Positions 3,001-37,892 of a stretch of DNA of 64,000 bases are shown here, one piece after another. Each line of letters starts with the position of its first letter. Positions within the stretch are counted from its first letter, which is position 1. The notes below the pieces were generated by a model. It saw nothing but the letters and a program-made list of their open reading frames with translations. It was not told the DNA's origin and made no database searches. Made by a program: the position numbers and the translations under genes. The DNA is from Agelas oroides (taxonomy: Eukaryota > Porifera > Demospongiae > Agelasida > Agelasidae), in contig OX422196.1 in the NCBI GenBank assembly GCA_949130485.1, positions 3,206,889-3,270,888 of the forward strand. Reading direction: 5' to 3'.

Positions 3001-3399
3001 TAGAGCCATGGTAGAGTGTAGTAGAGTCAGGTAGAGCCACGTAGAACCACGGTAGCATGTAGTAGAGTCATGTAGAGCCAAGTAGAGCCATGGTAGAATG
3101 TAGTATAGCCAGGTAGAGCCATGGTAGAATGCATTAGAGTCAAGTAGAGTCACGTGGAGACATGGTAGAATGTAGTAGAGCCAACGTAGAGTGTAGTACA
3201 GTCAAGTAGAGTCAAGTAGAGCCATGGTAGAATGTAGTAGAGTCATGTAGTGTGAAGTAGAGCCATGATATACAATGGAGTATAGCCATGGTAGAGTGTA
3301 GTAAAGTGAAGTAGAGCCAAGTAGAGCCAAGGTAGAATGTAGTGGACTCAAGTAGAGCCAAGTAGAGCCAGGGTAGAGTGCAGTAGAGAAAAGTAGAGT

Positions 3400-6300: not shown

Positions 6301-8900
6301 GAGGCATACAGAGTGAAGTAGAGCTATGGTAGAATGCAGTAGAGTCACGTAGAGTCACGTGGAGCCATGGTAGAATGTAGTAGAGCCATGGTAGAGTGTA
6401 GTAGAGTTGAGTAGAGCCAATTTGAGCCATGGTAGAGTGTAGTAGAGTGAAGTAGAGCCATGGTAGAATGTAGTAGAGTCATGTAGTGTGAAGTAGAGCC
6501 ATGATATACAATGGAGTAGAGCCATGGTAGAGTGTAGTAAAGTGAAGTAGAGCCAAGTAGAGCCAAGGAAGAATGTAGTGGACTGAAGTAGAGCCAAGTA
6601 GAGCCAGGGTAGAGTGTAGTAGAGTCAAGTAGAGTCAAGTAGAGCCATGGTAGAATGTAGTAGAGTCATGTAGAGTCAAGTAGAGCCATGGAAGAATGTA
6701 GTAGAGCAAGTTAGAGCCATGGTAGAGTGTAGGAGAGTCAAGTAGAGTCGCGTGGATCCATGGTAGGATGTAGTAGAGCAAAGGTAGAGTGTAGTAGAGA
6801 CAAGTAGAGTCAGGTCTAGCAATGATAGCCAGGGTAGAGTGTAGTAGAGAAAAGTAGAGTCAAGTAGAGCCATGGTAGAATATAGTAGAGTCATGTAGAG
6901 TCAAGTAGAGCCATGGTAGAATGTAGTAGAGCAAGGTAGAGCCATGGTAGAGTGTAGGAGAGTCAAGTAGAGTCGCGTGGATCCATCGTAGGATGTAGTA
7001 GAGCAAAGGTAGAGTGTAGTAGAGACAAGCAGAGCCAGGTCTAGCAATGACATAGTGTAGTAGAGTCAAGTAGAGCCAAGTAGAGCCATCGTAGAGTGTA
7101 GTAGAGCCAAGTAGAGCCATGGTAGAATGTAGTAGAGTCATGTAGTGTCAAGTAGAGCCATGGTACAATGGAGTAGAGCCATGGTAGAGTATAGTAGAGT
7201 CAAGTAGAGCAAAGTAGAGCCACGGTAGAGTGTGGTAGAGTCACGTAGAGCCAAGTAGAGTCATGGTAGAGTGTAGTAGAGTCAAGTAGAGCCAAGTACA
7301 GCAAGGATAGAATGTAGTAGAGTCGTGGAGTGTCAAGTAGAGACATGGTACTATGGAGTAGAGCCATGGTAGAGTGTAGTAGAGTTAGGTAGAGCCACGT
7401 AGACCCACGGTAGCATGTAGTAGAGTCATATAGAGCCAAGTAGAGCCATGGTAGAATGTAGTAGAGCCAGGTAGAGCCATGGTAGAATGCAGTAGAGTCA
7501 AGTAGAGTCACGTGGAGACATGGTAGAATGAAGTAGAGCCAACGTAGAGTGTAGTACAGTCAAGTAGAGGCAAGTAGAGCCATGGTAGAATGTAGTAGAG
7601 GTATACAGAGTCAAGTAGAGCTATCGTAGAATGTAGTAGAGTCAAGTAGAGTCACGTGGAGCCATGGTAGAATGTAGTAGAGACATGGTAGAGTCTAGTA
7701 CAGTCAAGTAGAGACAAGTAGAGACATGGTAGAGTGTAGTAAAGTCAAGTAGAGCCAAGTAGAGCTATGGTAGAGTGTAGTAGAGCCAAGTAGAGCAACG
7801 GTAGAGTGTAGGAGAGTCAAGTAGAGTCAAGAAGAACCATGGTAGCATCTACTAGAATCATGTAGTGTCAAGTAGAGCCATGGTAGAATGTAGTAGAGCA
7901 AGGTAGAGCCATGGTAGTGTGTAGTAGAGTCAAGTAGAGTCACGTGGAACCACGTTAGAATGTAGTAGAGCCAAGGTAGAGTGTAGTACAGTCAAGTAGA
8001 GTCAAGTAGAGCCATGGCAGAATGTAGTAGAGTCAAGTAGAGTCAAGTAGAACCATGGTAGAATGTAGTAGAGGCATACAGAGTGAAGTAGAGCTATGGT
8101 AGAATGCAGTAGAGTCACGTAGAGTCACGTGGAGCCATGGTAGAATGTAGTAGAGCCATGGTAGAGTGTAGTAGAGTTGAGTAGAGCCAATTTGAGCCAT
8201 GGTAGAGTGTAGTAGAGTGAAGTAGAGCCATGGTAGAATGTAGTAGAGTCATGTAGTGTGAAGTAGAGCCATGATATACAATGGAGTAGAGCCATGGTAG
8301 AGTGTAGTAAAGTGAAGTAGAGCCAAGTAGAGCCAAGGAAGAATGTAGTGGACTGAAGTAGAGCCAAGTAGAGCCAGGGTAGAGTGTAGTAGAGTCAAGT
8401 AGAGTCAAGTAGAGCCATGGTAGAATGTAGTAGAGTCATGTAGAGTCAAGTAGAGCCATGGAAGAATGTAGTAGAGCAAGTGAGAACCATGGTAGAGTGT
8501 AGGAGAGTCAAGTAGAGTCGCGTGGATCCATGGTAGGATGTAGTAGAGCAAAGGTAGAGTGTAGTAGAGACAAGTAGAGTCAGGTCTAGCAATGATATAG
8601 TGTAGTAGAGCCAAGTAGAGCCAAGTAGAGCCATCGTAGAGTGTAGTAGAGCCAAGTAGAGCCATGGTAGAATGTAGTAGAGTCATGTAGTGTCAAGTAG
8701 AGCCATGGTACAATGGAGTAGAGCCGTGGTAGAGGTTAGTAGTGTCAAGTAGAGCCAAGTAGAGTGACGGTAGAGTGTGGTAGAGTCACGTAGAGCCAAG
8801 TAGAGTCATGGTAGAGTGTAGTAGAGTCAAGTAGAGCCAAGTAGAGCCATGGTAGAATGTAGTAGAGTCATGTAGTGTCAAGTAGAGACATGGTACTATG
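3400..8900. repeat. Higher-order repeat of about 1.7 kb in the satellite
   Basis: The same ordered series of variant decamers recurs. Landmark blocks end at 4050, 5710 and 7511 (spacing 1,660 and 1,801), and another landmark starts at 4654, 6345 and 8115 (spacing 1,691 and 1,770). Copies look nearly identical, including private variants such as GAGCCAATTTGAGCC and GATATACAATGG, and differ mainly by small insertions and deletions. This indicates recent amplification of a long unit on top of the old decamer. Confidence 0.75.
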
Positions 8901-11900
8901 GAGTAGAGCCATGGTAGAGTGTAGTAGAGTCAGGTAGAGCCACGTAGAGCCACGGTAGTATGTAGTAGAGTCATGTAGAGCCAAGTAGTGCCATGATAGA
9001 ATGTAGTAGAGCCAGGTAGAGCCATGGTAGAATGCAGTACAGTTAAGTAGAGTCACGTGGAGCCATGGTAGAATGTAGTAGAGCCAAGGTAGAGTGTAGT
9101 ACAGTCAAGTAGAGTCAAGTATAGCCATGGTAGAATGTAGTAGAGGGATACAGAGTCAAGTAGAGCTATCGTAGAATGTAGTAGAGTCAAGTAGAGTCAC
9201 GTGGAGCCATGGCAGAATGTAGTAGAGACATGGTAGAGTGGTGTACAGTCAAGTAGAGACAAGTAGAGCCATGGTAGAGTGTAGTAGAGTCAAGTAGAGC
9301 CTAGTAGAGCCATGGTAGAGTGTAGTAGAGCCAAGTAGACCAATGGTAGAGTGTAGGAGAGTCAAGTAGAGTCAAGAAGAGCATTGCTAGCTTTTAGTAG
9401 AATAATGTAGTGCCAAGTAGAGCCATGGTAGAATGTAGTAGAGCAAGGTAGAGCCATGGTAGTGTGTAGTAGAGTCAAGTAGAGTCACGTGGAGCGATGT
9501 TAGAATGTAGTAGAGCAAAGGTAGAGTGTAGTACAGTCATGTAGAGTCAAGTAGAGCCATGGCAAAAGGAGTAGAGTCAAGTAGAATCAAGTAGAGCCAT
9601 GGTAGAATGTAGTAGAGGCATACAGAATCAAGTAGAGCTATGGTAGAATGCAGTAGAGTCACGTAGAGTCATGTGGAGCCATGGTAGAATGTAGTAGAGC
9701 CATGGTAGAATGTAGTAGAGTCATGTAGTGTGAAGTAGAGCCATGATATACAATGGAGTAGAGCCATGGTAGAGTGTAGTAAAGTCAAGTAGAGCCAAGT
9801 AGAGCTAAGGTAGAATGTAGTGGACTCAAGTAGAGCCAAGTAGAGCCAGGGTAGAGTGTACTAGAGTCAAGTAGAGTCAAGTAGTGCCATGGTAGAATGT
9901 AGTAGACTCATGTAGAGTCAAGTAGAGCCATGGTAGAATGTAGTAGAGCAGGGTAGAGCCATGGTAGAGTGTAGGAGAGTCAAGTAGAGTCACGTGGATC
10001 CATGGTAGGATGTAGTAGGGCAAAGGTAGAGTGTAGTAGAGACAAGTAGAGTCAGGTGTAGCAATGATATAGTGTAGTAGAGATAAGTAGAGCCAAGTAG
10101 AGCCATCGTCGAGTGTAGTAGAGCCAAGTAGAGCCATGGTAGAATGTAGTAGAGTCATGTAGTGTCAAGTAGAGCCATGGTACAATGGAGTAGAGCCATG
10201 GTAGAGTGTAGTAGAGTCAAGTAGAGCCAAGTAGAGTCAAGGTAGAGTGTAGTGGAGTCAAGTAGAGCCAAGGAGAGTCATGGTAGTGTGTAGTAGAGTG
10301 AAGTAGAGAAAAGTAGAACCATGGTAGAATGTTGTAGAGTCATGTAGAGTCAAGTAGAGCCATGGTAGAATGTAGTAGAGCAAGGTAGAGCAATGGTAGA
10401 GTGTAGGAGAGTCAAGTAGAGTCACATGGATCCATGGTAGGATGTAGTAGAGCCAAGGTTGAGTGTAGTAGAGACAAGTAGAGCCAGGTCTAGAAATGAT
10501 ATAGTGTAGTAGAGTCAAGTAGAGCCAAGTAGAGCCATCGTAGAGTATAGTAGGAAATCAAGTAGACCCAAGTAGAGCCACGGTAGAGTGTGGTAGAGTC
10601 ACGTTGAGCCAAGTAGAGTCATGGTAGAGTGTAGTAGAGTTAAGTAGAGTCAAGTAGAGCCATGGTAGAATGTAGTAAAGTCATGTAGTGTGAAGTAGAG
10701 ACATGGTACTATGGAGTAGAGCCATGGTAGAGTGTAGTAGAGTCAGGTAGAGCCACGTAGACCCACGGTAGCATGTAGTAGAGTCATGTAGAGCCAAGTA
10801 GAGCCATGGTAGAATGTAGTAGAGCCAGGTAGAGCCATGGTAGAATGCAGTAGAGTCAAGTAGAGTCACGTGGAGACATGGTAGAATGTAGTAGAGCCAA
10901 CGTAGAGTGTAGTACAGTCAAGCAGAGTCAAGTAGAGCCATGGTAGAATGTAGTAGAGGTATACAGAGTCAAGTAGAGTCACGTGGAGCCATGGTAGAAT
11001 GTAGTAGAGACATGGTAGAGTGTAGTACAGTCAAGTAGAGACATGGTAGAGTGTAGTAAAGTCAAGTAGAGCCAAGTAGATCTATGGTAGAGTGTAGTAG
11101 AGCCAAGTAGAGCAACGGTAGAGTGTAGGAGAGTCAAGTAGAGTCAAGAAGAGCCATGGTAGCATCTACTACAATCATGTAGTGTCAAGTAGAGCTATGG
11201 TAGAATGTAGTAGAGCCAGGTAGAGCCATGGTAGAATGCAGTAGAGTAAAGTAGAGTCACGTGGAGCCATGGTAGAATGTAGTAGAGCCAAGGTAGAGTG
11301 TAGTACAGTCAAGTAGAGTCAAGTAGAGTCAAGTAGAGCCATGGAAGAATGTAGTAGAGTCAAGTAGAGTCAAGTAGAACCATGGTAGAATGTAGTAGAG
11401 ACATACAGAGTCAAGTAGAGCTAAGGTCGAATGCAGTAGAGTCACGTAGAGTCACGTGGAGCCATGGTAGAATGTAGTAGAGCCATGGTAGAGTGTAGTA
11501 GAGTGAAGTAGAGCCATGGTAGAATGTAGTAGAGTCATGTAGTGTGAAGTAGAGCCATGATATACAATGGAGTAGAGCCATGGTAGAGTGTAGCAAAGTG
11601 AAGAAGAGCCAAGTAGAGCCAAGGTAGAATGTAGTGGACTCAAGTAGAGCCAAGTAGAGCCAGGGTAGAGTGCAGTAGAGTCAAGTAGAGTCAAGTAGAG
11701 CCATGGTAGAATGTAGTAGAGTCATGTAGAGTCAAGTAGAGCCATGGTAGAATGTAGTAGAGCAAGGTAGAGCCATGGTAGAGTGTAGGAGAGTCAAGTA
11801 GAGTCGCGTGGATCCATGGTAGGATGTAGTAGAGCAAAGGTAGAGTGTAGTAGGGACAAGGAGAGCGAGGTCTAGCAATGATATAGTGTAGTAGAGTCTA

Positions 11901-14746
11901 GTAGAGCCAAGTAGAGCCATGGTAGAATGTAGTAGAGTCATGTAGTGTCAAGTAGAGACATGGTACTATGGAGTAGAGCCATGGTAGAGTGTAGTAGTGT
12001 CAGGTAGAGCCACGTAGAGCCAAGGTAGTATGTAGTAGAGTCATGTAGAGCCAAGTAGAGCCATGATAGAATGTAGTAGAACCAGGTAAAGCCATGGTAG
12101 AATGCAGTAGAGTCAAGTAGAGTCACGTGGAGCCATGGTAGAATGTAGTAGAGCAAAGGTAGAGTATAGTACAGTCAAGTAGAGTCAAGTAGAGCCATGG
12201 CAGAAAGTAGTAGAGTCAAGTAGAATCAAGTAGAGCCATGGTAGAATGTAGTAGAGGCATACAGAGTCAAGTAGAGCTATGGTAGAATGCAGTAGAGTCA
12301 CGTAGAGTCATGTGGAGCCATGGTAGAATGTAGTAGAGACATGGTAGAGTGCAGTAGAATCAAGTAGAGCCAAGTAGAGCCATGGTAGTGTGTAGTAGAG
12401 TCGAGTAGATTCACGTGGAGCCATGTTAGAATGTAGTAGAGCAAAGGTAGAGTGTAGTACAGTCAAGTAGAGTCAAGTAGAGGCATGGCAGAATGTTGTA
12501 GAGTCAAGTAGAGTGAAGTAGAACCATGGTAGAATGTAGTAGAGGCATACAGAGTCAAGTAGAGCTATGGTAGAATGCAGTAGAGTCACGTGGAGCCATG
12601 GTAGAATGTAGTAGAGCCATGGTAGAGTGTAGTAGAGTCAAGTAGAGCCATGGTAGAATGTAGTAGAGTCATGTAGTGTGAAGTAGAGCCATGATATACA
12701 ATGGAGTAGAGCCATGGTAGAGTGTAGTAAAGTCAAGTAGAGCCAAGGTAGAATGTAGTGGACTCAAGTAGAGCCAAGTAGAGCCAGGGTAGAGTGTAGT
12801 AGAGTCAAGTAGAGTCAAGTAGAGCCATTGTAGAATGTAGTAGAGTAATGTAGAGTCAAGTAGAGCCATGGTAGAATGTAGTAGAGCAAGGTAGAGCCAT
12901 GGTAGAGTGTAGGAGAGTGAAGTAGAGTGACGTGGATCCATGGTAGGATGTAGTAGGGCAAAGGTAGAGTGTAGTAGAGACAAGTAGAGTCAGGTCTAGC
13001 AATGATATAGTGTAGTAGAGATAAGTAGAGCCAAGTAGAGCCATCGTCGAGTGTAGTAGAGCCAAGTAGAGCCATGGTAGAATGTAGTAGAGTCATGTAG
13101 TGTCAAGTAGAGCCATGGTACAATGGAGTAGAGCCATGGTAGAGTGTAGTAGAGTCAAGTACAGCCAAGTAGAGTCAAGGTAGAGTGTAGTGGACTCAAG
13201 TAGAGCCAAGTAGAGCCATGGTAGAGTGTAGTAGAGTCAAGTAGAGACAAGTAGAGCCATGGTAGAATGTAGTAGAGTCATGTAGAATCAAGTAGAGCCA
13301 TGGTAGAATGTAGTAGAGCCAGGTAGAGCAATGGTAGAGTGTAGGAGAGTCAAGTAGAGTCACATGGATCCATGGTAGGATGTAGTAGAGCCAAGGTTGA
13401 GTGTAGTAGAGACAAGTAGAGCCAGGTCTAGCAATGATATAGTGTAGTAGAGTCAAGTAGAGACAAGTAGAGCCATCGTAGAGTATAGTAGAGTCAAGTA
13501 GAGCCAAGTAGAGCCACGGTAAAGTGTGGTAGAGTCACGTAGAGCCAAGTAGAGTCATGGTAGAGTGTAGTAGAGTCAAGTAGAGTCAAGTAGAGCCATG
13601 GTAGAATGTAGTAGAGTCATATAGTGTGAAGTAGACACATGGTACTATGGAGTAGAGCCATGGTAGAGTGTAGTAGAGTCAGGTAGAGCCACGTAGACCC
13701 ACGGTAGCATGTAGTAGAGTCATGTAGAGCCAAGTAGAGCCATGGTAGAATGTAGTAGAGCCAGGTAGAGCCATGGTAGAATGCAGTAGAGTCAAGTAGA
13801 GTCACGTGGAGACATGGTAGAATGTAGTAGAGCCAACGTAGAGTGTAGTACAGTCAAGTAGAGTCAAGTAGAGCCATGGTAGAATGTAGTAAAGGTATAC
13901 AGAGTCAAGTAGAGCTATCGTAGAATGTAGTAGAGTCAAGTAGAGTCACGTGGAGCCATGGTAGAATGTAGTAGAGACATGGTAGAGTGTAGTACAGTCA
14001 AGTAGAGACAAGTAGAGACATGGTAGAGTGTAGTAAAGTCAAGTAGAGCCAAGTAGAGCTATGGTAGAGTGTAGTAGAGCTAAGTAGAGCAACGGTAGAG
14101 TGTAGGAGAGTCAAGTAGAGTCAAGAAGAGCCATGGTAGCATCTAGTAGAATCATGTAGTGTCAAGTAGAGCCATGGTAGAATGTAGTAGAGCAAGGTAG
14201 AGCCATGGTAGAGTGTAGTAGAGTCAAGTAGAACCAATTTGAGCCATGGTAGAGTGTAGTAGAGTCAAGTAGAGCCAAGTAGAGTCAAAGTAGAGTGTAG
14301 TGGACTCAAGTAGAGCCAAGTAGAGCCATGGTAGAGTGTAGTAGAGTCAAGTAGAGACAAGTAGAGCCATGGTAGAATGTAGTAGAGTCATGTAGAGTCA
14401 AGTAGAGCCATGGTAGAATGTAGTAGAGCAAGGTAGAGCAATGGTAGAGTGTAGGAGAGTCAAGTAGAGTCACGTGGATCCATGGTAGGATGTAGTAGAG
14501 CCAAGGTAGAGTGTAGTAGAGACAAGTAGAGCCAGGTTTAGCAATGATATAGTGTAGTAGAGTCAAGTAGAGCCAAGTAGAGCCATCGTAGAGTATAGTA
14601 GAGTCAAGTAGAGCCAAGTAGAGCCACGGAAGAGTGTGGTAGAGTCACGTAGAGCCAAGTAGAGTCATGGTAGAGTGTAGTAGAGTCAAGTACAGCCATG
14701 GTAGAATGTAGTAGAGTCATGTAGTGTGAAGTAGAGACATGGTACT
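8900..14746. repeat. Higher-order repeat of about 2.94 kb in the satellite
   Basis: Landmark blocks at 9877 and 12815 (2,938 apart) and at 10681 and 13617 (2,936 apart) show a longer unit than in the middle of the array. A sub-block also recurs at 13196 and 14306 (1,110 apart). The two spacings agree within 2 bp, so this is a real higher-order unit and not chance similarity of decamers. Confidence 0.7.
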
Positions 14747-15191: not shown

Positions 15192-16415
15192 TCAAAAGTG
15201 GGAGACATGAGGCTGTGTTATATCAGATTTTGCTGTAGCTAATTCCTCGGACTTTTCTTCCCTTCGAGTGTGAAAGCGAAGGTAGAGCTTGTAGACCTCC
15301 TTATAGCCTTGCTTGCCCATCAGCTCATAGTTAAATTCGTACATGTCCATGAGGAGAGAGCTGAGCCCTTTGAGGAATCCCATCTCAGTACTACCCTGGT
15401 TATCTGCCAAAGTACACAACGCCTTGTACATGGTGCTAAGTGCTACAACTTTGTCTACGGGTGACATCGTGTCTTTCCAAATGGCTTGAGCAATGTGCTG
15501 TGGGACATAGACTATCTCTGGCTCAGTAGATGGCTGCTGAACACCCAGTGAGGGGTGCAGAATGACTGGAACTGGGTATCTCTTCACTAGCTGCATCTGG
15601 AAGAGTTTTGAATGTAAGTTTGTTGAAATGCATGGTTTCTGAGAAGCTTGCAAGATCATTGATGAGACCTCTGTGACCACACCCATGGGGATGGGGGTGC
15701 AGCTACACATGGATACTGCAAACAGCAGCAGCTTCTCTTCTGCATTGAGACTGCACTGGTCTATGAGAGTGGTCACGGCTTGCCATGAGTCATAGGGGGA
15801 ATTGGTACGCCAAGAGTCCTGGTCAGGAGGTCTGACAGAGTCAATGTTGTTATGGACATTCTTGGACATTTCTCTTTCACTTGCTGCCCTCTTTGGAGGT
15901 TCATGCCCAACAACAGTGACTGGCTTTGTGTAAGGTCCCACCTCATCCAGTAACAGTAGGTAATTGAAATTTACGAGTGTGTCATGAGTGTCTTGAGATG
16001 CATTCTGAGAGTCATGCTCCATCTGTGAGAGGAATAATGCTGCTATCACATCAATGAGGGCAGGGGATCCAGATGTGAATTGTGCAAGTTTCTCAAGGAT
16101 TTTCTGATCTTCATCGTTGGGAACAAAGTGGTGAGCACTTAATATGGTGTGAATAATTCGCTGAGTGGTATGCATCATTGACAGAGGCTTCACATCAATT
16201 ACTTTGCAGCCTCTTAAGAGCTTGTGGTCAATCTCCCTCAGCAGAGCATTAGGAGGTGCATAGGTCTTAGAGATAGCCACGATGTGTGTGCATGGGCATC
16301 TCAAGAGGTCCATGAGCGATGTCGAGAAGTCAGAAAACCATGGCATTTGATCAATATGGTCGAGAACAACAAGGACAGGAAGACTTTGTAATGTAGTAGG
16401 TACAGTCTCAGTTGC
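15192..16415 (-). CDS. CHAT gene exon 5 (Walker B, winged-helix-like, C-terminus)
   Basis: The acceptor TTTCTGCAG leads into 407 codons ending at a TGA (15194-15192). It contains a hydrophobic strand ending in acidic residues (LPVLVVLDHID, Walker B), a GSPALIDVIAALF segment that matches the GxP motif of NB-ARC proteins, and then a region resembling the STAND winged helix (NAEEKLLLFAVSM). The last 100 residues are helical and match no family I recognise. Confidence 0.87.
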   Translation of the reverse strand, partial: ATETVPTTLQSLPVLVVLDHIDQMPWFSDFSTSLMDLLRCPCTHIVAISKTYAPPNALLREIDHKLLRGCKVIDVKPLSMMHTTQRIIHTILSAHHFVPNDEDQKILEKLAQFTSGSPALIDVIAALFLSQMEHDSQNASQDTHDTLVNFNYLLLLDEVGPYTKPVTVVGHEPPKRAASEREMSKNVHNNIDSVRPPDQDSWRTNSPYDSWQAVTTLIDQCSLNAEEKLLLFAVSMCSCTPIPMGVVTEVSSMILQASQKPCISTNLHSKLFQMQLVKRYPVPVILHPSLGVQQPSTEPEIVYVPQHIAQAIWKDTMSPVDKVVALSTMYKALCTLADNQGSTEMGFLKGLSSLLMDMYEFNYELMGKQGYKEVYKLYLRFHTRREEKSEELATAKSDITQPHVSHF

Positions 16416-19400
16416 CTGCAGAAATGATTGTATTATGTATGACAAGTGCATGGTGTATGAGGTTACCTAGCTTGTTGAACATACCTGTCTGATGTAAACT
16501 ACACTGGAGTCAATCAGCTCTTGCTGCCTGCCATTGACCCAGAAGATCCCTCCTTTGAATACATCATGGAAGGAGTAAATGAAGTCAACCAGAGGCTCTG
16601 AAGGTTTCACTCCAGGGGAACCCGTCAAGATCTGTAGGTAATACAAACTCATGATTTTCTCAGTACTATATTAGGGGTTAGAATAATAATTTCCACAAGG
16701 GAAAGATGTTGTAAATTTGTCTCATACAGCATACACGATACCTGCACATCAGAGGGAGTATGGGGATCTTTGAGGAAGGCTGACTCCAGCTGTTGGACCA
16801 CCTTTAGTCGAGGGAACACACTGCTCTTGCCAAGTTTTGCTTCAAGGGTTGCTGCAGTGCTGGGCTCTGTAATGTCAAATTGGATCTCCTTCCCTGAGAG
16901 AGAGAAAGGGAATAGGGGGAAGAATGATGAACTACTTGCACAGTATGTTTGTATTTACAGATTGTGAACTTACCAGTGAGTTCATACCCACCCCAGTGGA
17001 TGTATTGGGAGTACTTGCTGAAACATCTCAGACTGAGGGTGGCCTTATGGAGGGCTAGTGATGCCTTCAATCCATCCATTAGGTACTGGTAAAAGAACAG
17101 CATGAAGACAGAGGCAGATTCATCTGGCACACTCCAAAGGGTGGTGAGAACTGCCTGGGCACCAGCAAAGATGAAGGCCCGAGCCAGGTCAAGAATTCCA
17201 TTGGCTTTCACTGTCCCCCTTCCACTATCACAACTGTGGAGAACCACAAGGGCTGGGGAAATGCTCAGTTTCTCGATGTCCTCGGGGTGAAGTAGAATGT
17301 TGTTTGCTTCAAGAGCTTCTCCATTTCTAGAAGAACATTCACCTGAAAATGCTAGGAAGCCAGCCGATGCACTGCCATGGGTAGCTATGTGAACCACCTT
17401 AGCATTCGTGATTCTCATTAGGACAACATCTTTGGTTGCCTGCTTATGAAGAATTGGAGCAGTTTTGAGGATGTTTGCCACACACTCAGCCTGTTGTGTG
17501 GCAAATGGAAGCTTTCCAAGACTCCACTCATCACCATTGTATGTAAATGATGGGATTGTTGGGTTTCCTACCACACATATGTTCTGACTGTCTGCAGGCA
17601 TTTGGACAACAATAGAAGAAAGTTGGTTAACAATACCCATCGTCAGAAGTGATGGCATGATCCTGAAACTGTGGTTATCTCCCAGAAATTTGTCTTCTTC
17701 ATCAAGAAGGCAGGAAAATGGTAGGTTTGTGTAACTGTCTGGAATGATGACTATCTCATGTACACCAGAGGTTGAGTGAGGGTTCTTTAGTCCATTCAAA
17801 ACCTCAATCAGTGGCTTGCCAATCAGTTTGTACAGCTTTCTAACTGGTTTATTCCCGTTTGACTTGTAGTCAACTGCACTGGACAGTTCAAAGTTTCTCT
17901 CCACCAGTTCCTCTGTCAGGCCATACCTAAGATTGTAGTCAAATGACTTCCCTTCACATTGGTCATCTTCTAGAGGTACCTCAAACATGTCCACTGAGGG
18001 TTTGTCATCAGATGTCGGGGCTAGGACCCATCCCAGCAGTCTGGCTCCAGTGTGTGAGAGATACACTATCACTGAGTGTTGGGATTGCACAATATATGTG
18101 ATATCCTGAAGATTGAGGGGAGCAGCTACTGGGTGGTTGATTGTTGATCCCTTCTTCTTCACCAGCAACTCACCAAGTGCTCTGGTTCTATTCTGCTCTG
18201 CAACAACAAGAGCCTTCTCCCACTCCCCCAGGTTGACAAGGCAGTCCTGAAGGCAATGGAAGATCCTTGAGTTGGTCTCAAAGGGAGATACTGACAGTGT
18301 CAGGCCTTTGGAAGATCCCTTGATGTTTTCAAATGCTTCTTCACAGTACTTTACAACTAGCTCCAAGTCTTGTCTCCCAAGTTGATAATACTTCAGGATG
18401 CCGTTGGGAAGGGATTTGAATGATGGCTGATGTTCAACTTCACAGTTCTCAAAATCAGAACCATCAAGAGAAGATCTAATTATGTGAGGTAGAGTTGTCT
18501 TCTTGCTTTCAGCCCACTCGTAATAGGAACAACCTCTGCTGCACAAGGCAGTGAAGAAAGTGAACCTGTCTCTTGAGAGATGCAGGACTTCAGTGTACTG
18601 TGGTATGGCTCTCTCATAGTCCTTTCTCAGCATCAGAACATTTCCAATGTTGCCATACGCTCTGGCTTGCCCAGGAAGATCATTGCCATAAATGGCTTGG
18701 CTGAGAGCTAAGTCATAGTATTCCTCTGCTTGGTCTAGCTCATTCAGGGCCTGATAAGCTGCTCCCAGATTGTTGTAGGCTTTGCCGATGGCTAGTGGGG
18801 TTGGCTCATGCACTAGTGTCAGGTCTAGTGCCTTCTCTAAGTGATAGAAAACTTTGTCTCGCCTGTAGAGTCCTAGGTAGGCAATTCCCATATTTCCATT
18901 TGCCAAACTGAGGGAAACATAATCTTTCAACTCTTCTGACAACTCAATTGAAAGTTCATACTCTACCAAGGCATTTGCATCATCTCCCATACTCTTTAGT
19001 AGGTTCCCTAAGCTCATGTGAGCTGAGAGCTTGTCCTTTTTAGAGTTAGTTGTGGCTATGGCTTGTCTGTAGGCATGCATTGCATCTTTTACCTTTGAAG
19101 CATTCCTGAAGGCTGAACCTAGCTTGACTGATATGGCTGAGAAAGTAGGAACAATAAGCCGGTACTCTTTGCCAACATTAGAAATATCATCCCTGTGCAG
19201 TTTTAAGGCATGAGAGTAATGTTCAATAGCTTCTGTGTATCTAGACTCTGTAAATTCAATGTCACCCAAGTAAACACTGGCAATAGACTCATTTCCACTG
19301 CTCTGTGTTGATGCAGCAATTGCTTTCAGACTCTCAAAATGTTTGGTTGCTTCACTATACTTGCCAAGTTTGTAGTAAGCAAGTGCACATCCAAACTGAG

Positions 19401-22400
19401 TTGCCATGACAACATTAGCAGGGAATGAGAAAGGCATCTTTCCAAACTTTAATAATTCTAACATCTGAGAGTAATAGCCAGCATCAAGGCAGTTTGCAGC
19501 ATTCTCAATGTAAGCATGCCACATACTCAATGGCTCTTGTTCAGGAACACATTCATCAGTAACTAGTTCAGCTGTAGAGGATTCAATTAAAGAAGAGTTT
19601 GGCATGATTTGGGGGGAAGTAGATGGGCCTGCAGTTTCATAAAATGGTTGCTGTGAACATTTTTGATACAGTGAGTCTGTGAGTGTGGGAGCAGTACTGG
19701 TAGTAACTGTTGGTTGGTTTAACTCCCACTTGTTTTGAGTCAGTGAGAGATCTACTACCAGAGAATTCCCATTTGGTCTATGAGCAACAGACACCATTTC
19801 AGACCAAGATGGGATGCCCTGTTCTTCTTTTACTGATAACTCATTGGTGACTTTCTTCCTACTTCCTCCACGACACATCAACAGTTGCTTACTGTTGGGC
19901 CAGAGTGGTAGTAACATGGTAGGAACAGTTGTAGATGTTGCATACACAACCCTTGGGATCTCCCAGTGCTGGCAACCCACCATGGCCCAATGGAGAGTAG
20001 AGCTGTCAATGTCTACTTCTAATTTTGAGAGCACTTTAATAATGGAGGCTAGGAGAGTTATTAGCTGGCAACTAGAACACTGTTGCAGAGTTACAGGAGA
20101 TACTTGTGAACATATCAAACCTTCCAGTAATATTTTAAAATCTTTGCTTTGTGATGCAATCTCAAGTGGAGTGTGTCTGTCTTCATCCATCATATAAATT
20201 TGATCCTCACCTCCATCACATGTAAGGATATTCCTGACCGATTGGAAGCACTGATGCTTGACAGCATGATGCAGTTCTGCAGAGACTCTTGAGTCTGAAG
20301 TGCTACTGTTAAATGAACAATCAATGAAATTGGAAATTTGTAAAGCGGTGCCTTGCAGTATGAGCTTTGTATCACAAGGAAATGAAAACGTAAGCTCTTT
20401 GTCCATGTCACACACATGTATAATATCCTCTGTATTCCGTATTTGAACAGAGAAGTCCTCAGTTTCTGTTTCACTTTCTGAATCACTGTCCTCATGGTAC
20501 ACCTCTCTTCTTTTAGTTCTAGCTGCTCTCTGTGCAATGGTGAACGTTGAGAATTTTTTGCGGCTACGCTCATTTGTATGATCACTCTCGTCACTAGAGT
20601 AGCCTGGACATTGATACAGAACAGCCACTGAACTCTTCTTTCGTTTGGCAGCAACATGTTTTACGACTGGAATTGCTGCCTTAAGCTTTAGCACTGTACT
20701 ATGTGATTGTCTAGTAGGATGCTTAGTTATAGATAAAGTTCCTCCAGAACCATCTGACTCATCAGCTTCCAGTGAAGTCATGTCACCACCTGAAAATGAT
20801 CCAGAAGATGTATCCACAGTCGAGAGAGGTGTTGATGATCCATCACATCGAGACAGTATATTAGTGGGATTTGATCTTGATTCACTCAAGTTCAGGTCAA
20901 GATCTGGACTGTAATGCCCTTGAAGGCAAAGGTGAGGAACGAAACTATTTCCTCTAATTTTCATCATAGTTTGAAAAATGACCTCTTGTAGGATCTTAGC
21001 AGCACAACTTGTTATCGGATGTTCAAGAGTACATATAATTGACCAGAGCTTGTGTTCAAATAACAGCACTATGGAAGGTAAGTTTTCAGGGTTCAGAACC
21101 AATTTATGTGTGGCAAATCTCATGACCACACCTGTAGTGGCATTTTTTGCTCCAATAGCATGGTGCAATGGTGTGTGTCCTGAGAAGTCCTGGACACAAC
21201 AAATATTGCGGAATGGGGTCTTCTCCAAGTAATGTACAAAGATATAGGTTATACCATTGGATAAAAGTCCCACAATGTCTAAGACAACAAAGGCATCACT
21301 GAGTGTTTTAGTTTGTTCCACATTCTTTTGGACCAGCAAATTAACATGTAAGGGACAGGTGAAGGTCTCCAGAGCAGAAGAATCAAGCAGAGCTTTCTGT
21401 TCTGTGGAGCTTACGAGTTGTTCACCTGTGTGAAGTGAGGGAGGTGAAAGGTTTACAGATAATGTGGTTGGTTTATTATATTGTGCAGCCAGTTTTCTAG
21501 ATGTAAAGTCACGGGCAATGGGCTCATTTCCACAAGTTTGCGCAGCAATAATTTTAAGACTTACAAGATGTTTGGCCACCTGGCTATACTTATCAAGTTT
21601 GTTGCAAGCAAGTGCAGTTTCGAACTGAGTTGCCATGACAACTTCAGCTGGAAGTGAGAAATTCACCTTTCCAAACTTTAATGCTTTCAACATCTGAGAG
21701 TAATAGAAGCAGTTTACAGCTTTTTCCATGCAAGCCAGCTTTGCAGTTATTTCCTTTTCAGAGTCTGCATCCAGCAACCTGAGGGATACACTAGAGACTT
21801 GTTTGTGGGTAATCAGTTTAGCTGTTGAGGATTCGAGCTGGGGGCATAAAGAAGGGTCTGCAGATACACAGAGTAGTGTCTCAGTTGCAGGTGAAGAAAT
21901 AATATCAGTTATCTCATCTGAAGTTGAGTTACTTGATGTTTCGGCGAAGGGTATGCCTTTTGTTTGATAAAAACCCAAAACTTTACTGTTATGTTGTGTG
22001 TGGCCTGTTACAAGAGAGTTCCTGTACACATGGGTGAAGTCAACCATACAAGCAATAGACACCATTTCAGACGGAAATGAGAATCCTTGTTCTTGTACTG
22101 CCACCTGTGCACTTCTTGCTTCTTTCTTTTTCCTCCTATTAATCATTTCCTCTTCACGGTATTCAGTTCTCTGTGACCTAGTACACTTTGAGGATTCTAT
22201 ATTGCTACACTCATTTTCACAATCACTGTCACCGTCACGAGAGTAGCCCAAATATTGACACAGGTCTTCCTTGGAACTATCTTTGGCACGTTTAAATGCT
22301 GTTACCCAAAACTGACTGAACCAACTTTCATAGCCTGGAAGGTTTTCTTCTTCATTTCCTGCGACAAGATTGGGGATTTGTTCAACTCTATCAGCTGGAA

Positions 22401-25400
22401 CTCCTTCCTCAATCTGTGTATACTCATGGAGCATCTTATCCCACTCTGCCTGCTTTTGTGCAAATTCGGTTGGGTTATCCTTAAGTTTGTTTGCAAATGT
22501 GAGTACAAAAACTGTATGCTCCCACATGGACTGTCCAAACATTTGAGTCAAATTTTGCATCATTTCATAATCTTTCCTCTCTAGTTTTCTATCCATTCTC
22601 ACACAGAATAATATCAAATCAATGGGTTCTTCACTAATTTTATGCCCAATCTCAGAGTTGGTGTTTTGGTCTGATACTTTGAGGTCACTAAACCCAGGCA
22701 TATCAACCAGTGTTACTTGAACACCATTAATGTTTTCTGTGAAGCTCTCAATATTATGTGTCGTAGGGTGTGGCCCAGCAACTTCATCACCTTCCTTTGC
22801 CATCTTTTTACCAATCAGGCTATTCACTAGTTTTGACTTTCCCTGATGAATCTGACCAGTGACCAGTATCCTGATGGATCTGCCCTTGCTAGCAAGTTCC
22901 TGGAAGTACAGTTGAGCTTCCTCACATTCTTCTTGTATGGTATGTGTTCTTGAAGGTGAGCTATCAATCCATGTCTCACTAGTTTCTGAAACAGGTGCAA
23001 AAGAATGTAATTTCTGTACTGGAACAAGAGCGTCTGGGGTTTGTGTGAAGTGGTGAGGTGTAGCACCAGTATCCATGGTTGGTGTTAGGTGGTGAGGCAT
23101 AGCACCAGTATCCAAGGTTGGTGTTAGGTGGTGAGGTATAGCACCAGTATCCAAGGTTGGTGTTAGGTGGTGAGGTATAGCACCAGTATCCAAGGTTGGT
23201 GTTAGGTGGTGAGGCATAGCACCAGTATCCAAGGTTGGTGTTAGGTGGCGAGGTATAGCATCAGTACTTTGAATGTCTTTGGTTTTGTCATTTCTTTCAA
23301 TTTTCAAGTAGGCTGTAGTACCTGTCTCATCTGACACATCAGTGGAAATAGTGAGACATGCTGTGAGGTGTGGAGGATCATCTGGGCTGTCTGGAGTTGT
23401 ATAAACTTGTAGCACTCTATCATAGCTACCTTTCATCAAGGATTCAAATTCAAATTTTAATTGTGAGCCATCCAACACACACGAAGAAACAGTTAAGTTC
23501 AAGTTTCTCAGCTTGTGTAACAATTGTAGGGTGCCTTCTCTAAGGCATTTCTGAGCAATGTTTTTCAGAAAGTTAGAAAGCTCATCTTGCAATGACTCAT
23601 TCTGAAGAACATTTGAAAACACTAGAGTAGCTATGTCACTTTGTGAGCTTTGAATACTTTCCCTGAACAACTCATCAAAAGTTACGTTGGCAGCTTCGTT
23701 GTTTAGAATGCAAAGGGCATAAGCCCAGGACCAGTGTTTGATTTTCACTACCTTTTGGAGGAGGACGTTGATCCACAGTGTTGCAAGGGAGATTAGAGTG
23801 GGAGATTTGCTATGCAGCATGTCATCAAGTGGCACTTGTAGCACCTGTACAGACACAACTTAATCATTTCTCTGCATACAGCAGGGCTTTAAACTCTACG
23901 GTAATTTGTAAGTATACTGATTACATCTTTGTTTGGAGTCTATTTAAGAAGGCATACATGGAGCATCTAACACATGTTGTGGCAAGTGCCCTAGCAAGTA
24001 GAGACGGTACCCCACCGGTGCAGGTGCGCCTGAAAATTATTGGCGCCAAATGTACCGTTGTCAATCAAGAATCAGACGCTACAAATGGATAAAGGTGTTG
24101 AAATCGAGCTGCGCAGTATAGCTATCTGTATCCTCAGAATAACAAGGTCTCGTATGCTCCCCTGATCTCAATGTATGTGAGTTTGCCGTAAGTAATAAAG
24201 TGACTTTACACTGCGGATAGGTTTGTACCAAAGACATGGTCAAAGTGTTCTTGATTCGAGGTGATGGTATGGCCTAAAATAGCCTCAGAATCGACCTGGG
24301 AAGCCCAAAATTTTTTGGGGGAGCATGCTCCCAGACCCCTCAAGCTGCTTCTGCATTTTGCACAGAAGTTCTCACAAACGTAGTGTGCCCATGCTGTACG
24401 TGCCCTGGCATTGGCTGTGTTCTGGCTACGCCTCTGGTAGTGGTCAATTCTAGCTGGTATCTTAGTTAGTAAAGTATTCAAATAATATTAGAAAAGGAAC
24501 TAAATGAGTTGTAAAAATGTAATAAATTCACTCAAAATCACCTTGTCTCACGTGAGAGATCTCAAATTTGTGTGCATGTGTAATTGCTAATAAACTTGTA
24601 CAATACTGTATAAACACAATTAGTGCACATCAGAATTATCATTATTTTGGAGGTGCTCGTGTTGATCTTACTAACCTATACAAACACTACATGCTAAAAT
24701 ATCCTTCTAGCTTGCTACCAGGTGTTGTATTTACAAGACAGTTGTTGTCCGAGTACTATTCCGTCACTTCAAGAGCTAATACACCTTTGATGTACCATTG
24801 TATTCTACTCCTATCCAAACCAAAACCACAAGGGGTGGACAAATGGGACAGCAACATTGAGAATTACTTGAAAAGAACCATCTGTAATATACGCTTAACA
24901 GATGGTAAGGCTTTTGCATGCACATGCAAATATTGTAGTACCATTTACTTGTTTTTATCATCACTATGAGCTTTCATTTTTTACACCCCACAATACATTG
25001 CTGTGTATGTATAGCCTTGCACCCAGGCTCCTCCTCAGAATAGGGAGGAACCTGGATACAAGGCTAGTATGTACAGGAATATGTATTATGCATGAATGTA
25101 TGTGTGTACATATGTGTATGTACATGTATCTGGATTACTAAATTCATAGCAAAATTTGCTACTGCACACCTCAAATATATCTGGGTATCCATGCACACAC
25201 AAAACCACACCACTTGGTATTGAACAAAAACAAAGCATGCTTTGCTCAAGAAGCTTTCTGAGATGATGCACAAGACACCTTGGTTGCTTCACACACCTGT
25301 GGAAACTACTGTGACAATGAAGCGCTTTGATGCTGAAGATCACTAAGGAGCACAGTTCACATGCACTACACTGTCATCCTCAGTGAGCAAGTGAGTTTAA

Positions 25401-25968
25401 AATGGGGGGGAAATTTGATACTACTTGTGGCAAATAACGTAAAATGTTAACTTACTGTGTGCAAAAGTAGTTAAAACAGACAATAGAATATGAAAATGTG
25501 TTTGCATGTATAGTGTATGGGCCCAAGGGTTTCAGGCCAGCTAGCTGTTTCTATCTGTAAATGAGATTCTTCATTGTTATACACTTTTGAAACTGCACAA
25601 TAATCCTGACTTATAAATGCTACACTCGAAACTATATCTACAGTTATACAAGCGGTATTAAGTATAGCTTCATTCCCTGATGGTTTCTCACTGGAAACAA
25701 GGCTATAAAATAAAGATTGGCTAATGCAGCGCAAGGCAAAGTTATGGTACACTAAGCACACATAGTGTACATAAACAAAAGCTAACTGTATGACAACTTG
25801 TTGCCATACAGTTAGCTTTTTAATACAGTCAGTATTCGTAGCCATATATGGTGACTGTATTGAAAACATTGCACATACCATTTCTCTCCCATCTTCATCT
25901 AGTTCACTGGTGGAAGGTAGCGAACTAGAGAGTGCAATTTGTTTTGCACAAGTGGTAGCTTTAGCCAT
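15192..25968 (-). CDS. Giant GTPase-ankyrin-TPR-CHAT-STAND protein (predicted 2,827 aa)
   Basis: Five exons on the minus strand: 25968-25879, 23844-16974, 16893-16742, 16631-16485 and 16415-15192. All junctions have GT/AG and the frame is continuous through them. Order of domains in the assembled protein: helical N-terminus; 13-residue repeats at about 227-302; AIG1/TOC34-like GTPase at about 350-506 (GQIHQGKS P-loop at 360, DMPGFSD); single ankyrin-like motifs near 913 and 1250; TPR repeats about 1496-1796; CHAT domain about 2031-2320 with HIATHG (His2186) and HSCDSGRG (Cys2235); NB-ARC-like module about 2350-2560 with Walker B LPVLVVLDHID; and a C-terminal helical region. CHAT domains are caspase/separase-related cysteine proteases, often coupled to TPRs in bacteria and in animal TTC28. 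I infer a cytosolic sensor-protease. The introns rule out bacterial contamination. No signal peptide or membrane segment is seen. The exon structure is a sequence-only prediction. Confidence 0.88.
16485..16631 (-). CDS. CHAT gene exon 4 (degenerate Walker A)
   Basis: 147 bp, phase 0 at both ends (CTACAG acceptor, GTATGT donor). It encodes ILTGSPGVKPSEPL followed by FKGGIFWVNG. The layout matches an NB-ARC P-loop and the following WV strand. The expected GxPGxGK[ST] reads GSPGVKPS, so the canonical glycine-lysine-serine of the phosphate-binding loop is not intact. Confidence 0.87.
16742..16893 (-). CDS. CHAT gene exon 3 (CHAT to STAND linker)
   Basis: 152 bp between a CTCTCAG acceptor and a GTATCG donor. 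It completes the split glycine codon and ends on a codon boundary. The peptide includes SSVFPRLKVVQQLESAF, which resembles the FxGRxxxxxxL lead-in that precedes NB-ARC/STAND domains, so the NTPase module begins almost directly after the protease. Confidence 0.85.
16974..23844 (-). CDS. CHAT gene exon 2 (giant 6.9 kb exon)
   Basis: About 2,290 codons without a stop. It starts at a CAG acceptor and ends CTCACTG at a GTAAGT donor, leaving one base of a split codon that is completed by exon 3. It carries the GTPase, the ankyrin-like motifs, the acidic and basic low-complexity middle, all TPRs and the whole CHAT domain. Such a large exon next to three small ones suggests either intron loss or a retro-inserted core later joined to 3' STAND exons; this is inference. 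Confidence 0.93.
16987..17844 (-). other. CHAT protease domain coding segment
   Basis: Order of CHAT landmarks: IVIIPDSYTNLPFSCLLD, then ICVVGNP, an APILHKQATK stretch, VVHIATHG (catalytic His, codon 17379-17377), VVLHSCDSGRG (catalytic Cys, codon 17232-17230), then FIFAGAQAVLTTLWSVPDE. The AGA-x-AVxxxLWxV block after the cysteine is characteristic of CHAT. Both catalytic positions are present, so activity is plausible. Confidence 0.92.
18547..19449 (-). other. TPR array coding segment
   Basis: Successive 34-44 residue helix pairs carry the TPR pattern, for example YYKLGKYSEATKHF, FTESRYTEAIEHYSHAL, YNNLGAAYQALNELDQAEEY and YGNIGNVLMLRKDYERAIPQY. About seven repeats can be seen. Glycine and alanine at positions 8 and 20 are well kept. 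TPRs normally bind peptides and, in TPR-CHAT proteins, hold the protease inactive. Confidence 0.9.
21112..21204 (-). other. Isolated ankyrin-like motif in CHAT protein
   Basis: The peptide DFSGHTPLHHAIGAKN has the G-x-TPLHxA signature of an ankyrin repeat. Another motif, DEDRHTPLEIASQSKD, lies near 20122-20199. They are not in a continuous solenoid, so they may be eroded remains. Confidence 0.6.
22417..22881 (-). other. AIG1/TOC34-like GTPase domain coding segment
   Basis: G1 motif GQIHQGKS (codons starting at 22857), G3 VDMPGFSD, then a helix-strand pattern PIDLILFCVRMDRKLERKDY and FGQSMWEHTVFVLTFAN. This is the pattern of AIG1/GIMAP and TOC34-type GTPases. The base-recognition G4 motif reads TFANKL instead of TKxD, as in divergent TOC-like members, so guanine specificity is uncertain. 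Confidence 0.8.
23029..23256 (-). repeat. In-frame 39 bp coding minisatellite
   Basis: About six copies of a 39 bp unit encode a 13-residue repeat, HLTPTLDTGAMPH with M/I and other small changes. The unit is a multiple of three, so copy-number change keeps the frame. It lies just before the GTPase and probably forms a flexible linker. Confidence 0.9.
23985..24440. repeat. Interspersed repeat, copy 1 (CHAT intron 1)
   Basis: Closely similar to 30565-31083. Shared blocks include TAGCTATCTGTATCCTCAGA, TATGGCCT-AAATAGCCTCAGAA, ACCTGGGAAGC, GGGGGAGCAT-CTCCCAGA and GGCTGTGT-CTGGCTA. No flanking target duplication was resolved, so the class is unknown. Confidence 0.75.
25012..25066. mobile_element. 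55 bp fold-back element, TAGCC ends
   Basis: Begins TAGCCTTGCACCCAGGCTC and ends as an imperfect inverted copy, CCTGGATACAAGGCTA. It is flanked on both sides by GTATGTA (25005-25011 and 25067-25073). It belongs to the same end-sequence family as 32733-33336. It lies in CHAT intron 1. Confidence 0.75.
25777..25820. repeat. Perfect hairpin in CHAT intron 1
   Basis: Arms AAAAGCTAACTGTATG (25777-25792) and its exact reverse complement (25805-25820) surround a 12-base loop. Origin unknown; possibly a minimal fold-back element. Confidence 0.8.
25879..25968 (-). CDS. CHAT gene exon 1 (predicted start)
   Basis: An ATG at 25968 with A at -3 and G at +4 opens a 30-codon segment ending GREM at a GTATGT donor. 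It ends on a codon boundary. The next acceptor (TGTACAG, exon starting 23844) also begins on a codon boundary in the frame of the giant exon, so the two join in frame. The alternative is a start at the first ATG inside exon 2 (codon at 23820-23818), which would lose this short peptide. Additional exons in the 2 kb intron cannot be excluded. Confidence 0.6.
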
Positions 25969-37613: not shown

Positions 37614-37892
37614 CACTCAACTGTTGTAGCCTGAGTTTAGTACTTTTATATCTGTGAGCATATATTACTGTGTGTCGAACATCATGATCACTGTTCATGC
37701 GTGCATGTATGTAAAACTGTATGCTCTCAAGAGATGCATATCTGGTATTAGCCAAAACGTGTGTGCGGATCTGAGTTATTTCCTTCGACCAGCAAATTGC
37801 AAACCGGAAATTCGTCGCGTCATTGGTCACATGATATGTGCTAATATTAAACGGCTGCTCGTGTCTTGGTACGATTGTCGGATTGAGAAGAA
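37614..37892 (+). promoter_or_regulatory. Short spacer between presenilin stop and LRR gene start
   Basis: 279 bp must hold the presenilin 3' UTR and much of the promoter/5' UTR of the next gene, unless they share a transcript. Visible weak sites are an ETS-like CCGGAAAT (about 37803) and an inverted CCAAT box ATTGG (about 37823) close to a CGTCGCG. No AATAAA is seen. Confidence 0.4.

Follow-up and report, generated by a model that had tools for sequence, protein, structure and literature searches.

The window examined here is a stretch of 64,000 nucleotides from the demosponge Agelas oroides (contig OX422196.1, positions 3,206,889 to 3,270,888 of the forward strand). On its minus strand, at 25968..15192, it harbors a gene in which an AIG1-type GTPase, a TPR array and a CHAT domain with a retained His/Cys pair are followed, in this order and within one gene of the genome sequence, by a STAND-like module whose Walker A motif has been lost; the core exons evolve with ratios of nonsynonymous to synonymous substitution rates (dN/dS) below 1. 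By analogy with known proteases, the gene may encode a multidomain CHAT cysteine protease with a complete but nucleotide-dead C-terminal STAND module, that is, an autoinhibited and allosterically opened protease-receptor, a reading in which we place belief and doubt in about equal measure.

The unity of the gene follows from comparison with its paralogs. In the assembly searched (259 Mb, 141 contigs), at least 18 CHAT matches were found, 17 of them long; a CHAT fragment at C3:19.03 Mb is excluded from this set. The last exon of the tail has seven genome matches, each located directly 3′ of a CHAT exon in strict 1:1 pairing. These seven genes comprise the window gene, five genes clustered on the same contig at 8.11–8.33 Mb and a seventh on contig C3, and they form a single clade in the CHAT tree (support 100/100). 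The tail introns share their GT-AG ends and phases in 7/7 genes, and two paralogs, L018 and L019, have no intron between CHAT and exon 3, the frame continuing from CHAT directly into the linker. Because of the pairing, the common splice sites and phases and the intron-less paralogs, the CHAT domain and the STAND-like module belong to one gene at the level of genome sequence, and two separate genes are rejected. The preliminary description, which had proposed one spliced gene with this frame, these exons and these residues, is thereby borne out. Judged from the sequences of its members, the conserved core of the family is TPR-CHAT-dead STAND.

A 2,351-codon open frame on the minus strand (16804-23859) contains AIG1, TPRs and CHAT. 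GT-AG introns define the exons 23844-16974, 16893-16742, 16631-16485 and 16415-15192; together with a proposed exon 1, five exons add up to 2,827 codons. The product starts with an N-terminal domain and a coding minisatellite, followed by the GTPase, decayed ankyrin repeats, TPRs, CHAT and the STAND-like module; the minisatellite and the ankyrin remnants are additions to the preliminary description. The features are as follows.

25879..25968, minus strand: putative exon 1 (MAKATT...GREM, 30 residues), read from the sequence as an ATG, an open frame and a GT donor
16974..23844, minus strand: exon 2, a single open frame with N-terminal domain, minisatellite, GTPase, ankyrin remnants, TPRs and CHAT
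23260..23844, minus strand: N-terminal domain of about 195 residues, kind not assigned, recognized by genome matches
23038..23266, minus strand: in-frame coding minisatellite with a 39-bp (13-residue) unit in 5.9 copies, from repeat analysis of the sequence
22456..22872, minus strand: AIG1-type GTPase (Pfam AIG1, E-value 3.3e-19, residues 330-468 of the frame)
20125..20274, minus strand: decayed ankyrin repeats (Pfam Ank_2, below the curated cut-off)
18505..19419, minus strand: TPR array, from Pfam TPR families and helices in the predicted model
16974..17850, minus strand: CHAT protease domain (Pfam E-value 1.8e-43; model matches DdvA, separase and Csx29)
17377..17379, minus strand: His2186 codon in the HIATHG motif
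17230..17232, minus strand: Cys2235 codon in the HSCDSG motif
16742..16893, minus strand: exon 3, linker into the STAND module, continuous with the CHAT exon (no intron) in L018 and L019
16485..16631, minus strand: exon 4, decayed Walker A exon with an FKGGIFW motif and splice sites common to the paralogs
16599..16622, minus strand: decayed Walker A, GSPGVKPS (GLGGMGKS in the bacterial kin), from the alignment
15192..16415, minus strand: exon 5 with a Walker B-like strand, the GSP motif, a winged-helix-like C-terminus (by hhalign) and the stop; seven genome matches

Pfam assigns the CHAT domain to residues 2004-2296 with 149.5 bits against a curated cut-off of 24, and the same search returned the AIG1 and TPR families that had been read from the sequence before. 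Likewise, His2186 and Cys2235 lie exactly where the preliminary description had placed them. Both catalytic residues are kept in 15 of the 17 long CHAT copies (His in 15, Cys in 16), among them the window gene and five of its six paralogs, and both are invariant in 39/39 rows of an alignment of the window protein with cyanobacterial proteins. In an AlphaFold2 model of the TPR-CHAT part (mean predicted local distance difference test score, pLDDT, 77.5), a strand ends just before each catalytic residue. The best folds in the PDB are those of DdvA, human separase and Csx29, with template modelling (TM) scores of 0.38-0.54 of the query and large root-mean-square deviations. The model thus supports CHAT as a predicted cysteine protease with a caspase/separase-type fold. 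The expectation that a structure prediction would bring His2186 close to Cys2235 holds insofar as both follow neighbouring strands; the loop after Cys is modelled at low confidence. For the TPR part, the best natural solved structure is that of the cell-polarity scaffold LGN/Pins, with an engineered TPR scoring higher. A search of the genome for gasdermins gave no match, and neither did its controls.

The C-terminal module has a different standing with respect to its catalytic motifs. The Walker A motif GxxGxGK[S/T] is absent in 7/7 genes: GK is replaced by KP in six and by QP in one, and Pro takes the place of the following Leu (bacterial GLGGMGKSQLAVEF versus window GSPGVKPSEPLVDF). Because of this loss in all members, the module is read as a dead member by descent rather than as a working NTPase; by its sequence, it is nucleotide-dead, and a working second nucleotide site is rejected. 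A second Walker B acid is also absent from the tail, which weighs little because two of the three aligned bacterial proteins are without it as well. Loss of Walker A is not a feature of the whole genome, since six of the animal's seven own NB-ARC loci carry the full GxxGxGK[S/T] and the seventh retains GKS. The GTPase, by comparison, has intact G1 (GQIHQGKS) and G3 (DMPG) motifs and a non-canonical G4 (TFAN), the canonical G4 being TKxD-like. Its motif places are the same in L013 and L014, which also show TFAN at G4. Within the stretches examined, the GTPase was found in three of the seven genes, namely the window gene, L014 and L013, the L013 copy lying in its own frame, upstream of a break. 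With Walker A lost, the GTPase is the only candidate nucleotide switch in the window gene; the proposal of two nucleotide switches in one chain therefore falls. A further locus, L135 (C14:8094400-8099200), situated about 9.4 kb upstream of L011's frame, encodes a GTPase 65% identical to that of the window, followed by an expanded 13-residue coding repeat with a period like that of the window minisatellite; no CHAT frame was seen in these 4.8 kb.

The tail carries the STAND-like motifs VLVVLD and GSP, and its ancestry was traced with profiles. In a tblastn search of plasmids, it gave seven weak matches (best E-value 0.07), of which four carry an NB-ARC or TPR annotation. A profile built from 13 bacterial NB-ARC-TPR proteins, taken from 12 of the 21 distinct records matched, aligned with the tail in hhalign from before the P-loop to GSP (probability 97.6, E-value 4e-12, score 81.8); 200 column shuffles reached at most 26.0 and the reversed profile 13.4. 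Three of the 13 proteins had been found with the tail itself and were omitted in a control with the remaining 10, which still scored 66.6 (0/100 shuffles as high, top 22.0), with an alignment that then stops near Walker B. The winged-helix part after GSP, compared on its own with 11 of the 13 proteins, the three tail-found ones included, scored 39.3 at a probability of 62 (0/100 shuffles as high, top 20.9). Control profiles of CHAT, TPR-CHAT and GTPase scored 15.8-17.3 against the tail. These comparisons support, at the level of profiles, a STAND-type module akin to bacterial NB-ARC-TPR proteins. The earlier assignment of an NB-ARC-like NTPase module is thus upheld in its kinship and in the motifs VLVVLD and GSP, and qualified by the decayed Walker A and by a Pfam search that assigned no significant family. 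A scan of genome contigs with a bacterial NB-ARC query gave 38 stretches, none of which was confirmed. The animal's own NB-ARC proteins were rejected as close kin of the tail, since 4/100 shuffles and the reversed profile score higher than they do.

Selection on the gene was estimated by simple pairwise dN/dS between the window gene and four close paralogs, without a formal test. Values of 0.24 for CHAT, 0.13-0.22 for the Walker A exon (49 codons), 0.13-0.33 for the linker exon, 0.27-0.31 for the TPRs, 0.32-0.44 from Walker B to GSP and 0.31-0.33 for the C-terminus place the TPR, CHAT and STAND exons well below 1; the middle region is relaxed (0.48-0.56). Among the paralogs themselves (four pairs), CHAT yields 0.06-0.12 and the middle region 0.45-0.61. 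For the GTPase, dN/dS is not judgeable, its alignment being faulty and saturated. The N-terminal parts differ between copies and change faster than the core. From the low value of its exon, the dead Walker A appears to have been kept, presumably for a role other than nucleotide binding, the exon being a short one.

The front of the protein is less uniform. The exon 2 acceptor region is kept in L011, L013 and L014, where paralog homology begins at the acceptor or at most about 30 bases from it; the exon 2 donor is kept in five of the seven genes, and the intron is missing in the other two. Exon 1 has no match in the 1.3-2.6 kb of paralog upstream flanks examined, so the 2,827-residue translation proposed earlier is supported for four exons and has no paralog support for the first. 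Four genome matches were found for the N-terminal domain, the window included, the other three being 64-65% identical; Pfam has no match for it. The ankyrin repeats, clearer in L011, L014 and L016 than in the window gene, reach an E-value of 0.015 for Ank_2 in a scan of the whole frame and 6e-4 in a shorter piece, both under the curated cut-off. Upstream of the TPR array, the first TPR unit is repeated incompletely in exon 2 (YYSQMLKALKFGK... versus YYSQMLELLKFGK...), an apparent internal duplication read from the frame. Animal NLRs are defined by NACHT plus LRR. Neither occurs among 25 of the 26 Pfam families listed for the frame or in the scan of the tail, which places the protein outside that definition.

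Several other loci accompany the family. L013 (C3, about 4.51 Mb) has its frame break between the GTPase/ankyrin frame and the TPR-CHAT frame, which may reflect a pseudogene, an error of the assembly or unusual splicing. Seven further CHAT genes (L012, L015, L017, L021, L022, L023 and L024) make up a second group, which forms its own clade and has large insertions in CHAT; none of its genes carries any of the seven tail matches, and Pfam finds short N-terminal TPRs in both members scanned (L012 and L023). L020 (C19, about 6.80 Mb) is a CHAT gene rich in TPRs and similar to TTC28. Asn and Ala stand in place of its two catalytic residues, and the CHAT match contains one in-frame stop; its CHAT is apparently inactive. 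Within the window itself, a 14.7-kb minisatellite at 23-14744, with strong strand asymmetry (GC skew of about 0.48) and nested periods from about 10 to 175 bp, stops some 450 bp short of the gene's 3′ end, and a 659-codon open frame on the plus strand (37887-39866) gives a weak LRR match (E-value 0.085).

Among bacterial and archaeal genomes, the best relatives kept (the best 80 of 493 confirmed stretches, representing 78 loci) are cyanobacterial TPR-CHAT proteins, an outcome partly built in because all query rows other than the window were cyanobacterial. In 74 of these 78 loci, the protein stops at most 21 residues after CHAT, in three it stops at 130-137 residues, and one runs off its contig. 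A tail already appended in bacteria was rejected, since no STAND-sized tail is seen in the 78 relatives, one of them having no readable stop. The cyanobacterial alignment used 38 of the 78 loci, and 19 of those 38 entered a CHAT tree with the 17 copies of the sponge. A single change of label suffices on this tree (support 83/76; 82% of 200 bootstrap trees), which gives no sign of a recent transfer; the deep order is not settled by the tree, and L020 falls outside the seven-gene clade, on a long branch. Wnt genes are known only from animals. In the assembly, contigs C8, C10 and C22 carry Wnt matches, and C2 a weak one. A bacterial contaminant or a recent transfer was rejected on the strength of these matches, the spliced gene, the seven copies on two contigs and the one-change tree.

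Related architectures are compared here as described in the papers cited. Metazoan TPR-CHAT proteins (TTC28 and the coral families, which are strongly expanded) share the TPR array followed by one CHAT and occur in multiple copies in animals (PMC12314368); they are described as ending TPR-single CHAT, whereas the window protein continues into a dead STAND module and has a GTPase and ankyrins in front. No report of protease activity of animal TPR-CHAT families was met in the portions of the literature covered. Bacterial TPR-CHAT proteins (Csx29/Craspase and the cyanobacterial ones) share the His/Cys pair, the TPR scaffold and the caspase/separase fold and, unlike the window gene, show no STAND-sized tail in the best 78 cyanobacterial loci. 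A single protein likewise unites CHAT with an NLR-type module in fungal NLRs that have a CHAT protease (PMC10197012, PMC12881547). There, the protease is described as the N-terminal module, whereas the window gene has its repeats at the N-terminus and CHAT ahead of a dead STAND. Bacterial iSTAND ternary systems contain a STAND with eroded nucleotide motifs as a predicted sensor, and AIG-subfamily GTPases and caspase-like peptidases occur in them as well (PMC7159879, PMC8195603); these systems are spread over several genes with MoxR-vWA, and the window tail is likened to them by description only. Animal TRADD-N proteins fused to AIG GTPases or to TTC28-like TPRs have been mentioned (PMC8195603). 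With AIG1/GIMAP GTPases, the window protein shares an AIG1 domain with G1 and G3, which here lies inside a very large protein and is optional within the family. The partial full-text literature searched, a body that leaves subscription papers and preprints outside and gives weak evidence of absence, yielded neither the order GTPase-TPR-CHAT-dead STAND nor an animal protein in which a dead STAND follows an intact CHAT. TPR-CHAT proteins and dead STANDs are already known kinds, and their combination may be new. The earlier suggestion that the exact order is undescribed agrees with this, with the proviso that the gene is not unique, being one of seven such genes among the 17 long CHAT copies.

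A number of observations weigh against a latched, active protease-receptor of this kind. The gene model is drawn from genome sequence, and autoinhibition is argued by analogy. Some members of the family may be inactive, given the change of His to Gln in L016 and the broken frame of L013. TM-scores of the PDB matches to the TPR-CHAT model lie at 0.35-0.54 of the query, with large deviations, and the loop right after Cys has a pLDDT below 50. Concerning the tail, Pfam gives DUF3907 (E-value 0.23) and AAA_14 (0.24), each in one member and neither significant; the best match in a profile search of PDB sequences has an E-value of 0.08; and the last exon modelled alone did not fold (pLDDT 36.8). It is largely the Walker A (P-loop) part that carries the signal toward bacterial NB-ARC proteins; taken alone, the stretch from Walker B to GSP scores 21-23. 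With a profile of the seven NB-ARC loci of the animal itself, the score is 21.6, lower than that of the reversed version (28.0). The 49 codons of the Walker A exon are, at 0.21-0.47 among the paralogs themselves, less tightly held than CHAT.

Four other explanations compete with the protease-receptor. The protein might be a house-keeping TTC28-like cytoskeletal or cell-cycle scaffold, its CHAT and STAND serving as binding surfaces and neither as an active enzyme. Human TTC28 is indeed a TPR-CHAT protein needed for the cell cycle (PMC9145168), TPR-rich L020 is without both catalytic residues and L016 without its His, and LGN/Pins is the closest natural structure to the TPRs. However, both residues are kept in the window gene, in five of six paralogs and in 15/17 long CHAT copies, the seven genes form a fully supported clade that leaves L020 outside, and N-terminal parts that differ and evolve faster speak against a house-keeping role, so we regard a scaffold as doubtful, though deserving attention. 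A receptor for allorecognition or symbiont tolerance, in which variable N-termini would read self or resident microbes rather than pathogens, would suit a multicopy cluster with variable N-terminal modules and a minisatellite, and in fungi CHAT proteases have been linked to gasdermin cell death in the context of allorecognition (PMC12881547, PMC10197012); with only seven copies and a conserved core, such a function seems unlikely. A sensor in which the GTPase and an ATP-binding STAND both work to drive proteolysis draws on the intact G1 and G3 and on the STAND ancestry, but it is very improbable in view of a Walker A lysine missing in all seven genes and a GTPase found in three of them, the absent second Walker B acid counting little. 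Equally improbable is a pair of neighbouring genes or a decaying pseudogene, for which the purely genomic gene model, the break in L013 and the relaxed middle region (dN/dS about 0.5) can be cited, and against which stand 2,351 open codons, intron-less joining in two paralogs, strict pairing and core-exon dN/dS of 0.13-0.44 against the four paralogs.

For the protease-receptor, the steps from sensing to cleavage can be sketched from analogy. Craspase contains a TPR-CHAT protease that is autoinhibited until target RNA, by shifting the linker, opens it allosterically. In the sponge protein, the TPR scaffold would keep the protease closed in the manner of Craspase, and the dead STAND, packed against the protease, would act as a fixed clamp, an oligomerisation surface or a ligand reader rather than as an ATP switch. 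Binding of a ligand or partner by the faster-changing N-terminal part (GTPase, ankyrins and minisatellite), or by TPR/STAND, would open the active site, and the opened protease would then cleave a partner protein. Where present, the GTPase would be the only plausible nucleotide switch. Gasdermin cleavage by TPR-CHAT proteases has been reported in bacteria (PMC9729208) and fungi (PMC12881547, PMC10197012), and by analogy with these proteases the likeliest setting would be immunity or regulated cell death. The danger sensing and proteolysis put forward in the preliminary description are likewise conjectural. Inactive STANDs have been proposed as sensors in bacteria (PMC7159879, PMC8195603). A more specific version, which we consider unlikely as it stands, is a receptor-protease in a single polypeptide whose separase-like CHAT is latched by a dead STAND turned reader of a ligand such as nucleic acid, the kind of ligand proposed for bacterial iSTANDs, and whose exchangeable N-terminus of GTPase, ankyrins and minisatellite diversifies between copies.

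If such a single-polypeptide receptor-protease exists, sensing and proteolysis would need no separate adaptor or caspase. It would constitute an animal parallel to the fungal NLR-CHAT receptors and to the bacterial inactive-STAND systems with their AIG GTPases and caspase-like peptidases. The small set of genes would allow tests of genuine protease activity in animal CHAT domains and of the capacity of a dead STAND to serve as a latch or as a ligand reader.

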